A DNA stretch of 64,000 nucleotides from Streptomyces luomodiensis (GTDB lineage: Bacteria > Actinomycetota > Actinomycetes > Streptomycetales > Streptomycetaceae). A model generated the notes under the pieces. It searched no databases and was not told the origin of the DNA. It saw nothing but the letters and a program-made list of their open reading frames with translations. Shown here in pieces: positions 20,777-61,964 of the stretch. The translations under genes and the position numbers were made by a program. Where the stretch lies: contig NZ_CP117522.1 in NCBI RefSeq assembly GCF_031679605.1, positions 3,100,001-3,164,000 of the forward strand. Direction: 5' to 3'. How positions within the stretch are numbered: position 1 is the stretch's first letter; each line of letters starts with the position of its first letter.

Positions 20777-22422
<1,646 letters not shown>

Positions 22423-22719
22423 ATCGATATGTCACCTTCCCAGTCGGCATGGCTTCGCGTCGAGGCTCGACGGCCGCTCGGGGAAGGGTCACGTTTCCGC
22501 GTTACCGAGTGCGCACAGCGGTGTTTCCTGCGTGTTTCGTGTTGCCTGCACGTTTCCGGTGCGGGTTCGCGATGCGCGGTACCGGTGCGCGTTCGCGGTG
22601 CGCTTGCGCCGTTCCGGCGCGCGGTTCCGTGCGCGGTTCCGATGGCCGGTGGCGCAGGCCGGTGCCGCACGCGGAAAACCGGCGGCGGCCCCGGCCCGAC
22701 CCCTGCTACCGTCATCCGC

Positions 22720-22770
22720 ATGAAGCGCGCTGCCATGACGACGACGCCGGAGAGTGTCCCGGCGCGCTGA
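22720..22770 (+). CDS. Threonine-rich leader peptide of a ribosome-mediated attenuator
   Basis: This 16-codon frame encodes MKRAAMTTTPESVPAR and has three consecutive Thr codons (ACG ACG ACG). It starts 7 bases after a TACCGT -10-like element, so it is probably translated from a leaderless message. CGCCGG and CCGGCG flank the codons just after the Thr run and can form a small hairpin. A perfect terminator hairpin lies 17 bases after the stop, followed by a threonyl-tRNA synthetase gene. Stalling at Thr codons when charged tRNA-Thr is scarce should prevent termination; this is inferred from the layout. Confidence 0.75.
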   Translation: MKRAAMTTTPESVPAR

Positions 22771-22786
22771 TCGACGTTCTGATCCC

Positions 22787-22814
22787 AAGCCCCGGGGCGA
22801 GTGCCCCGGGGCTT
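22787..22814 (+). terminator. Attenuator terminator before the ThrRS gene
   Basis: AAGCCCCGGGGC and GCCCCGGGGCTT form a perfect 12-base stem with a GAGT loop, followed by TTGCCGT. It sits between the Thr-rich leader peptide and the synthetase start at 22876 and is the expected terminator of the attenuation system. Confidence 0.8.
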
Positions 22815-22875
22815 TGCCGTGCGGTCACTCGCCCGATGTCCACCGACATCCACCGACCTCCCCGAGGAGACCGCG

Positions 22876-24108
22876 ATGCCCGACCACCGCAAGCTCGGCC
22901 GTGAGCTGGACCTGTTCGACACCGACCCGCTGATCGGCGCCGGCTTGCCGTACTGGCTGCCGGACGGCGCGACCGTACGGCACACCCTGGAGGAGTACAT
23001 CCGCGACGCCGAGCGCCGGGCGGGTTACCGGCATGTGTACTCGCCGGTGCTCGGCAAGCGGGAGCTGTACGAGCTGTCGGGGCACTGGTCGCACTACAGC
23101 GACGACATGTTTCCCCCGATGGAACTGGGCGCGCAGCCGGGCGGGGAGCAGGTCGTCCTGCGCCCGAGCCTGTGTCCGCACCATGCGGTGATCTACCGCT
23201 CCCGCGCCCACAGCTACCGCGAGTTGCCGCTGCGGATGGCCGAGCTGGGCGGGATGTACCGCTCGGAGCTGTCGGGCGTGCTCGGCGGACTGACCCGGGT
23301 CCGGGCCATCCAGCTGAACGACGCCCATATCTTCTGCACCCTGGACCAGGTCGCCGACGAGGCGGGGGCGGCCCTGGAGATGATCCGCCGGGCGTACCAG
23401 GCGCTGGGCATCGCCCCGGCCCGCTACCGGCTCTCCCTTCCGGGCCCGGGAGGGAAGTACGTCGCCGCCCCCGAGCTGTGGCGGCGGTCGACCGCCCTGC
23501 TGACCGACGTCCTGGACCGCTCCGGCCTGCCGTACGAGGCGGTGGAGGGCGAGGCGGCGTTCTACGGCCCCAAGATCGATGTGCAGGTGGCGGACGGCGC
23601 CGGCCGGGAGTCCACCCTGTCCACCGTCCAGGTCGACTTCCACCAGCCCGAGCGGTTCGACCTGCACTACATCGGCCCGGACGGCGCCCGGCACCGTCCG
23701 GTCATGGTCCACCGCAGCATCATCGGGAGCGTGGAGCGGGCCGTCGCCCATCTCATCGAGGTGCACGGCGGGGCCTTCCCCGCCTGGCTCGCCCCCACCC
23801 AGCTGGTGGTCCTCCCGATCTCCGAGGCCGAGCTGCCGCAGGCCGAGGCGCTCGTCCGGCGGTGCGCGGACCTCGGGCTGCGCGCGGAGCTGGCCGGACC
23901 GGAACGCGGCAGCCTGGGCGCCCGGATCCGGGCCGCCCGCCTCGTCCCCTACCAGGCCGTCGTGGGCGCCAGGGAGGCCGCCGACGGCCGGGTGGCCCTC
24001 CGTCTACGCGACGGCCGCCGACCGGCCCCGCAGGCGGCCGACGACACCCTGGCCCGGATCGCCGCGCTGATCGCGGCGCACAGCACCGACCTGTGGGACG
24101 AGGCATGA
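22876..24108 (+). CDS. Short threonyl-tRNA synthetase lacking TGS and editing domains
   Basis: The 410-residue class II synthetase starts at ATG 22876 behind GAGGAGA. It begins directly at the catalytic domain (DHRKLGRELDLFD). Motif 2 is RMAELGGMYRSE, motif 3 is GSVERAVAHLIE, and the zinc ligands expected from E. coli ThrRS are present (Cys in SLCPHH, His in NDAHIF, His in MVHRSI). A C-terminal anticodon-binding domain is retained. The roughly 230 N-terminal residues of standard ThrRS (TGS and editing domains) are absent, so misacylated Ser-tRNA-Thr could not be cleared in cis. It is probably a second ThrRS for starvation or for resistance to a ThrRS inhibitor, switched on by the attenuator upstream. 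Confidence 0.88.
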   Translation: MPDHRKLGRELDLFDTDPLIGAGLPYWLPDGATVRHTLEEYIRDAERRAGYRHVYSPVLGKRELYELSGHWSHYSDDMFPPMELGAQPGGEQVVLRPSLCPHHAVIYRSRAHSYRELPLRMAELGGMYRSELSGVLGGLTRVRAIQLNDAHIFCTLDQVADEAGAALEMIRRAYQALGIAPARYRLSLPGPGGKYVAAPELWRRSTALLTDVLDRSGLPYEAVEGEAAFYGPKIDVQVADGAGRESTLSTVQVDFHQPERFDLHYIGPDGARHRPVMVHRSIIGSVERAVAHLIEVHGGAFPAWLAPTQLVVLPISEAELPQAEALVRRCADLGLRAELAGPERGSLGARIRAARLVPYQAVVGAREAADGRVALRLRDGRRPAPQAADDTLARIAALIAAHSTDLWDEA

Positions 24109-24179
24109 CGCCGTCGCACCGCCGGTCTGCGGGACAGCCGCCCACCACCGAGGCTGTAGACCCGCCGCCTGGGAGCTGA

Positions 24180-24598
24180 GGGCCCGCCGTCCACCATCGG
24201 GACGCGGGCCCACCGCCCAGCACCGGCAGCCAGGGACCCACCAGCCACCGCCAGGAGCTGAGCGCCCGCCGCCCACCGCCAGGGCCCCGGACCCACCGCC
24301 CACCACCGGCAGCTGAGGGCCCGCCATCCACCACCGGGACCGCGGACCCACCGCCCACCACCGGCAGCCAGAGACCCACCACCCGCCGCCGGGAGCTGAG
24401 CGCCCGCCGCCCACCGCCAGGGCCCCGGACCCACCGCCCACGAACGGAAGCTGAGGGCCCGCCATCCACCATTCCGGGGCCGCGGACCCACCGCCCACCA
24501 CCGGCAGCTGAGGGTCCGCCATCCACTATTCCGGGGCCGCGGACCCACCGCCCACCACCGGCAGCTGAGGGTCCGCCATCCACCATTCCGGGGCCGCG
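24180..24598. repeat. 57-bp tandem repeat array
   Basis: Successive copies of a unit containing CGGACCCACCGCCCACCACC, GGCAGCTGAGGG and TCCGCCATCCACCATTCC fill the gap between the ThrRS and beta-lactamase genes. The three copies nearest 24598 are almost identical with a 57-base period; those toward 24180 are degenerate. Because 57 is a multiple of three, the minus strand shows a long periodic open frame (VDGGPSAAGGGRWVRGPG type) that I do not regard as a gene. Confidence 0.8.
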
Positions 24599-61861: not shown

Positions 61862-61892
61862 AACCGCAACTCTCACCTGCGGTCAGTCACTG

Positions 61893-61964
61893 TGGGCGCA
61901 GACGGGTTCGAACCGCCGACATCTGCCTTGTAAGGGCAGCGCTCTACCGCTGAGCTATGCGCCC
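61893..61964 (-). tRNA. tRNA-Val (anticodon UAC)
   Basis: The 72-base minus-strand sequence folds into a full cloverleaf: acceptor GGGCGCA/TGCGCCC, D-arm GCTCAGCGGTAGAGC, anticodon stem CTGCC-CTTACAA-GGCAG with anticodon TAC, and T-arm GGCGGTTCGAACCCGTC. CCA is not encoded. Its 3' end faces the decayed island to the left, which is the usual arrangement at integrase attachment sites, but no second copy of the tRNA 3' end was found in the window. Confidence 0.95.

Follow-up and report, generated by a model that had tools for sequence, protein, structure and literature searches.

A conserved ACG-codon leader and a putative ribosome-binding-site switch upstream of an editing-less, ACG-depleted threonyl-tRNA synthetase gene in Streptomyces

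The window considered here is the whole stretch of DNA that was analysed, 64,000 nucleotides from Streptomyces luomodiensis. It carries a gene for a short threonyl-tRNA synthetase (ThrRS2, encoded by thrS2; 22876-24108, forward strand), which starts with ATG, specifies 410 amino acids, and consists of a catalytic and an anticodon-binding domain, with no TGS or editing domain. At E <= 0.001 the Pfam scan matches ThrRS2 to PF00587 and PF03129 only, and the tRNA_SAD editing domain is not found in it, which agrees with the preliminary description of an enzyme that begins directly at its catalytic domain. As that description had also supposed, a second, full-length ThrRS is present in the 10.04-Mb single-contig genome. 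It lies at 7956371, is 42% identical to ThrRS2, and as the housekeeping enzyme carries the editing domain (PF07973). The solved structure nearest to ThrRS2 by sequence is that of S. aureus ThrRS, at 380 bits, versus 270 for the full-length E. coli enzyme. The zinc-binding Cys/His/His, the arginines of motifs 2 and 3, and the Y, G, and K of FYGPK are invariant in 153 of 153 unique relatives, so ThrRS2 should, by its residues, be enzymatically active. It is poor in threonine (2.4%).

How widespread is this enzyme? Among the matches listed, ThrRS2 occurs in 76 of 150 genomes of the genus, the present one included and one at a contig end; in these matches, ThrRS2 scores above 430 bits and housekeeping ThrRS at or below 345 bits, clearly apart. 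At stricter E-values, it is matched in 83 of 197 genomes of the order and 48 of 296 of the class. Named carriers include Streptosporangium, Microbispora, Embleya, Kitasatospora, Nocardiopsis, and Streptoalloteichus, and Streptomyces sp. S465, at 99%, ranks first among the named records, in a list that may omit the window's own genome.

Upstream of thrS2, on the same strand, lies a leader open reading frame, MKRAAMTTTPESVPAR (22720-22770), with an ATG, 16 codons, and a TGA stop. It contains three consecutive ACG codons at 22738-22746, as first described, and these form a conserved run that would act as the sensor. In a class-wide set, 154 of the 155 short-ThrRS loci that could be evaluated have the leader. 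To briefly describe this set, 160 loci were examined, of which three at contig ends (L118, L142, and L152), one gene fragment (L077), and one full-length gene (L079) were set aside; four places had been fetched twice (L037/L105, L040/L128, L057/L134, and L067/L139), 153 leaders were located by script, and that of L133 was added by eye. The Thr codons are indeed conserved in homologous leaders. ACG ACG ACG CCG is present in 149 of the 153 scripted leaders, and ACG occupies 453 of their 459 triplet positions; outside or at the edge of the run, the leaders hold 42 ACC, two ACA, and two ACT codons. Even where the ThrRS is only 54-61% identical (L160-L162), the leader persists.

The consensus leader peptide is M[KQ]RA-x-TTTP[ED]xVPAR. 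In the nucleotide sequence, ACGACGACGCCGG and TCCCGGCGCGCTGA hardly change from leader to leader. They are separated by two codons, usually GAG or GAC followed by a highly variable one. In L017 and L145, the final leader codons are frame-shifted, yet TCCCGGCGCGCTGA is kept, and thus the RNA and the Thr codons, rather than the peptide, appear to be selected. A covariance model of the element gives 21 matches at E <= 1e-9 in 148 genomes of the class, each shortly upstream of a short ThrRS gene. Two weaker matches that were inspected (G380:C1:2730908 and position 1082938 of the present genome) resemble ordinary terminators. A T-box riboswitch was considered and rejected, as a comparison of the window with Rfam at gathering scores returned no T-box and a single match, a tRNA-Val with anticodon TAC at 61892-61964 on the reverse strand.

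Three loci of the set depart from this arrangement. L032 has a short ThrRS gene without the leader, still with the hairpin and the segment E described below, and the gene is free of ACG. L077 (genome G094) is a fragment of a second short ThrRS copy and has no upstream leader. L079 (genome G014), likewise without a leader, encodes a longer ThrRS whose frame extends upstream into an apparent N-terminal part; it is 55-56% identical to the short ThrRS and is perhaps close to the ancestral form.

The leader appears to be transcribed from its own first nucleotide. A -10 hexamer, TACCGT (22707-22712, forward strand), preceded by TGC as in an extended -10 element, lies upstream of the leader ATG with 7 nt between them. 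A leaderless start would be expected to show this spacing, and the transcription start is predicted to be the ATG itself. A leaderless leader had been thought likely, and the relatives speak for it. TANNNT begins 13 or 12 nt upstream of the leader start in 73 of 74 leaders, and it is at the same place in 152 of 153 under a start-picking rule that prefers TANNNT. Farther upstream, 33 nt before the start of the -10, is GAAAAC (22674-22679, forward strand), which fits the GAAAWY consensus of a WblC/WhiB7-type box. Of 148 unique promoters, 47 have strict GAAAWY at -36 to -32 relative to the -10, with an upstream-background expectation of 0.001 per leader (first 74 loci). An AT-rich patch peaks 32-28 nt upstream of the -10, and four A/T in a row occur near the box in 108 of the 148 unique promoters, versus 6 and 0 in two control windows.

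In S. coelicolor, the WblC box is GAAAWY, situated 3 nt upstream of the -35, and the table of the WblC regulon includes thrS2 as WblC activated (PMC7157823). The promoter studied here matches a box of this type, and activation by WblC is predicted. S. coelicolor thrS2 is thus similar to the present gene in being accessory and under a GAAAWY-binding activator, and the accessible part of that paper mentions no leader (PMC7157823). We infer that it is SCO3778, a threonyl-tRNA synthetase gene that a sigma-E study places among 11 sites whose binding was confined to cells under ethanol stress (PMC10771440). Divergent from the leader is an ammonium transporter gene (21112-22422, reverse strand), and the stretch between the two is GC-rich and, to the eye, repetitive.

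As mentioned, the leader run is made of ACG. Among the threonine tRNAs, one reads ACG and another reads ACC and ACU. What of the gene behind the leader? The present thrS2 has no ACG among its 12 Thr codons. Among 154 unique short-ThrRS genes (62,266 codons), ACG occurs 6 times in frame, versus 3164 and 577 times in the two remaining frames, and 148 of the 154 lack it in frame altogether; counted over 158 genes, with four places entering twice, ACG makes up 6 of 1522 Thr codons (0.4%). Within the same 20 genomes, ThrRS2 has 0 ACG in 216 Thr codons and the catalytic part of housekeeping thrS has 87 in 339 (Fisher p 2e-21, uncorrected for relatedness), the 20 housekeeping genes being taken from the genus-search matches listed, in genomes also carrying ThrRS2. 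The genes flanking 80 named loci use ACG for 1744 of 5511 Thr codons; in this control set, the corresponding ThrRS2 count of 15 in 986 (70 genes) includes upstream open-frame codons, and the frames of the flanking genes, as of leuS and alaS below, were chosen by a GC-frame rule rather than by annotation. All four conserved Thr columns of the ThrRS2 alignment are below 1% ACG, and 0 of 131 other conserved four-fold columns fall below 2% G-ending codons. The remaining codon families of ThrRS2 resemble those of neighboring genes, with G-ending use of 0.60 for Pro, 0.40 for Ala, 0.43 for Val, and 0.44 for Arg.

Three simpler causes of this purge were rejected. Adaptation to high expression does not account for it, given that the other four-fold families keep their normal G-ending use and that leuS uses ACG for 25% of its Thr codons. 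Avoidance at the DNA level is excluded by the abundance of ACG in the other two frames. A general avoidance of ACG by threonine-related genes is contradicted by the thrC match of the present genome, with 6 ACG among 19 Thr codons, and by frames taken by eye as hom (8 of 30) and thrB (4 of 14, the frame being cut by the locus end). Being nearly free of ACG, thrS2 could still be translated when the ACG-reading tRNA is empty.

Between the leader and thrS2 lies hairpin D, AAGCCCCGGGGC-GAGT-GCCCCGGGGCTT (22787-22814, forward strand, as are all segments below), with a perfect 12-bp stem. Four segments make up a possible set of competing arms. Segment 1, CGCCGG (22745-22750), is nearly invariant in alignment A1 (55 sequences hand-picked, with variants favored, from 117 de-duplicated ones that represent 136 loci with stretches of <=150 nt); a ribosome halted at the ACG codons would mask it. 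Segment 2, GUCCCGGCGCGC (22756-22767), can pair with segment 1 or with segment 3. Segment 3, AAGCCCCGGGGC (22787-22798), is the 5' arm of hairpin D, and segment 4, GCCCCGGGGCUU (22803-22814), is its 3' arm, so that 1:2, 2:3, and 3:4 arms are all present. Hairpin D covaries in alignment A1, with 16 cells changed on both sides versus 2.5 in shuffled alignments and none of 500 shuffles reaching that value; the covariation shuffles, like the permutations of segment E below, ignore relatedness. The 2:3 helix is complementary in 98.2% of cells and nearly invariant, so that covariation gives it no support of its own.

Folding with and without a ribosome, which the preliminary description had proposed, gives the pattern expected of an attenuator. 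In simulations over 134 loci, the mean probability of 2:3 pairing before segment 4 emerges is 0.98 with a ribosome at the first Thr codon, 0.98 at the second, and 0.78 at the third; it is 0.37 at the next codon, 0.19 with no ribosome, and 0 at the stop codon. A stall on the Thr codons is therefore predicted to favor the antiterminator-like 2:3 pairing. The same pairing is favored (0.65-0.97) when the simulated ribosome stops one to four codons short of the first ACG, and so the specificity for Thr rests on the codons and not on the geometry alone. These simulations and the forced folds described below used 134 and 130, respectively, of the same 138 loci. The suggestion that ThrRS2 is induced when charged tRNA-Thr runs low is supported as far as the predicted response to stalling goes; the codon run, though, is one of ACG rather than of Thr codons in general.

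Is hairpin D a terminator, as was also suggested? The hairpin is confirmed and the terminator is not, because only TTT follows at its 3' end. Among 153 loci, 134 lack UUU at the end of the hairpin, 13 have UUU, and 6 have UUUU, with the hairpin found having a loop of more than 7 nt in 12 of the 153. A different function is suggested by segment 5, or E, GGUCACUCGCCC (22823-22834), which can pair either with the D loop (22795-22803) or with the Shine-Dalgarno (SD) region of thrS2. The SD itself, GAGGAG (22864-22869), is segment 6 and is covered by E in relatives. At the present locus, the loop GAGU (22799-22802), together with 22795-22798 and 22803, pairs with E over 9 bp. Here an insertion separates E from the SD, and a local CCUC is the main predicted partner of the SD; this pairing lies inside a helix between the outer GGUC of E, the only part of E predicted to take part, and GACC at the SD end.

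The evidence for both pairings of E comes from the relatives. Pairing of E with the D loop and 5' arm exceeds the 95th percentile of shuffled E in 100 of 137 loci and the 99th in 63 (137 unique of the 141 loci, out of 153, with hairpin loops of <=7 nt). In the 55 sequences, D-loop:E shows 25 double-change cells versus 3.6 shuffled, and E:SD shows 31 versus 16.6, with none of 500 shuffles reaching the real value in either case; the number of D-loop:E pair types (13 versus 12.6) is not above that of the shuffles. In L087, for example, the D loop reads CAAGUG, E reads CACUUG, and the SD region reads GCAAGGAG, and in L158, the D loop CGAACG faces CGUUCG in E. Permuting E among 135 loci weakens both helices (means from -20.49 to -18.87 and from -17.35 to -14.74 kcal/mol), and none of 2000 permutations reaches the real mean; even so, a foreign E on average binds better than the locus's own in 32% (D loop) and 24% (SD). 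The SD is paired at 0.71 versus 0.63 shuffled, a modest excess, with 3 or fewer of 30 shuffles reaching the real value in 23 of 135 loci (135 unique of 138).

A simple ON state, in which 2:3 pairing frees the SD, is not seen in equilibrium folding, and this counts against the model. At equilibrium, mean SD pairing is 0.73 with 2:3 forced and 0.70 with D forced, and with 2:3 forced the SD becomes more accessible in only 3 of 130 loci and less so in 17. Release of the SD would therefore depend on a kinetic route. Since the hairpin usually lacks a U-tract and E covaries with both its loop and the SD, hairpin D probably belongs to a ribosome-binding-site switch, alongside or in place of a role as terminator. 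E would then act to sequester the SD, depending on whether D is already closed by the time E is transcribed, although the kinetic step in this model is inferred. A hairpin that is easily taken for a terminator may instead be part of such a switch.

Taken together, the locus is likely to be a conserved ribosome-mediated attenuator through which the accessory, editing-less ThrRS2 is made when the ACG-reading tRNA-Thr is uncharged. Transcription would start at the leader ATG from a WblC-activated promoter. A ribosome stalled on the ACG run would mask segment 1, allowing segment 2 to pair with segment 3 before D closes, and an absent or terminating ribosome would leave D free to form; folding is consistent with both steps. 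Segment 5 can pair with the D loop and 5' arm or with the SD region, and covariation supports both pairings. If D closes first, segment 5 would help to cover the ribosome-binding site, and some termination at D is possible. If D is delayed, segment 3 would take up segment 5, and the ribosome-binding site would stay free. Even with the ACG-reading tRNA empty, the ACC/ACU-reading tRNA-Thr would then suffice for translating thrS2.

Could the element be a purely transcriptional attenuator of the trp type, with D a terminator that happens to lack a U-tract and E a secondary feature of the mRNA without regulatory weight? All the arms are in place, the stall simulation behaves like a classical attenuator, the SD remains paired at equilibrium when 2:3 is forced, and attenuators have been predicted upstream of Streptomyces leuS and trpS (PMC1262725). 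However, UUU is absent near the hairpin end at most loci, and the loop of D, which is irrelevant to a terminator, covaries with E, as does the SD. This reading is unlikely, though it is the strongest of the competitors to the attenuator with an SD switch proposed above. A general sensor of translation stress, in which ribosomes slowed by antibiotics act as at the upstream open reading frame of wblC and the Thr codons are incidental, would draw on the WblC-type promoter box, the listing of thrS2 in the WblC regulon (PMC7157823), and the simulated stalls upstream of the Thr codons that likewise favor 2:3; the near-invariant ACG run and the matching exclusion of ACG from the gene make it improbable.

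The remaining two alternatives have very little in their favor. The preliminary description suggested a self-resistance synthetase paired with a natural product that inhibits ThrRS, as second ThrRS copies such as ObaO are elsewhere (PMC11252418), and this finds no support here: ThrRS2 is carried by about half of the genus genomes among the matches listed and by other families, the residue equivalent to Gly463, which is changed to Ser in ObaO-type resistance (PMC11252418), is Gly in 153 of 153, and Pfam recognizes no ThrRS-inhibitor pathway in twelve neighboring ORFs of the window, six of which matched nothing, some perhaps being wrong frames. Arrest by the nascent peptide TTTPE[ST]VPAR itself is just as remote, for all the strong conservation of that peptide, in view of the frame-shifted tails that keep their nucleotides and the variable codons between the two conserved blocks.

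How does the element compare with known systems? The use of attenuation for an accessory ThrRS was earlier held to be noteworthy, but it is not unreported: the S. lividans TK24 leader thrL (SLIV_19412), upstream of thrS (SLIV_19410), belongs to the same family (PMC8079986) and is the same element. The leader peptide of L052, MKRVRPFLETTPGFVPAR, is identical to S. lividans thrL, and the first codon of the L052 run is GAG. For thrL, the part of the report available gives a leaderless start from RNA-seq and a single hairpin that lacks a U-rich run. The element is confined there to a table and a paragraph, termination is called unclear, and the words "ACG," "sequest," and "antitermin" are absent from its main text (PMC8079986). 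The kind of device, leader-peptide attenuation of a synthetase, is therefore already known; what appears to be new is the ACG stall run with an ACG-free gene, the covarying SD switch, the stress-type promoter, and the class-wide conservation. A literature search, with most subscription journals outside its coverage, found no report of the ACG purge or of the E:SD switch.

The classical attenuators of Streptomyces trp operons, trpS, and leuS likewise combine tandem cognate codons with competing hairpins (PMC1262725). The trp terminators described there have poly-U tracts, unlike hairpin D at most loci, and in the material available from that study, threonine operons showed no conserved element in front of them (PMC1262725). 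Sequestration of the SD falls outside the classical scheme, though the LEU element of the same paper does pair its codon run with an SD (PMC1262725). In the theory of selective isoacceptor charging, leaders use the codon whose tRNA loses its charge first (PMC1183508). The E. coli thr leader uses ACC and the ThrRS2 leader ACG, and a further difference is that here the stall codon is almost absent from the downstream gene as well. A parallel for the enzyme is Anabaena ThrRS2 (T2), a stress-induced duplicate with impaired editing for which the housekeeping enzyme edits in trans (PMC4787780). Low zinc induces T2 by way of Zur, and the editing domain of T2 is degenerate, whereas the present ThrRS2 has none at all (PMC4787780).

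Is the division of codons between leader and gene peculiar to thrS2? The present genome carries leuS at G000:C1:3435973-3438774 on the reverse strand, the leuS loci covered being L287, L288, and L291-L319, and CTT and CTC are codons of one tRNA-Leu. In 30 Streptomyces genomes, the leuS leaders hold 56 CTT, 30 CTG, and 4 CTC codons, arranged in runs of CTT-CTG-CTT or CTC-CTG-CTT; that all 30 appear leaderless is partly due to the rule used, which requires TANNNT. The leuS genes themselves, with 2264 Leu codons, use CTG 2166 times, CTC 89 times (3.9%), TTG 9 times, and CTT never, and in flanking genes CTC makes up 38% of CTN codons. One exception, L311, has 29 CTC among 77 Leu codons. Thr codon use is normal in leuS, and Leu codon use is normal in ThrRS2 (34% CTC), which amounts to a double dissociation with the one leuS exception. 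In the present genome, the only one counted for this gene, alaS (L290, G000:C1:7988695) uses GCG for 9 of 87 Ala codons, and no leaderless leader was found for it by the rule used; avoidance of codons is thus not confined to genes with leaders.

These patterns raise the idea of emergency synthetase genes partitioned between isoacceptors, in which the leader stalls on the codons of the tRNA that loses its charge first and the gene is written in those of another; the chances of this being so seem evenly balanced. The stall codons would be those of the ACG reader for ThrRS2; for leuS they would mainly be those of the CTT/CTC reader, next to a single CTG in the leader. thrS2, leuS, and alaS fit the idea to different degrees, and housekeeping thrS does not. 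If it is true, alarm and remedy would use different tRNAs of one amino acid, and the leader would still report failure of the main ThrRS after ThrRS2 had restored ACC decoding. The idea that isoacceptors are charged unequally under stress, and that genes are written to exploit this, is a long-standing one that was developed for E. coli; here, in a single gene family present in several actinobacterial families, the pattern is near absolute and sets the sensor and the gene on opposite codons. It gives clear predictions for synonymous changes, and it points to a possible function within a stress regulon for a duplicate synthetase that lacks editing. leuA is less biased than leuS, with 6 CTC, 34 CTG, and 1 CTT. 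Finally, directly downstream of ThrRS2, at 24110-24400 of the window, is a series of short imperfect repeats resembling cccaccgcccaccaccgg.
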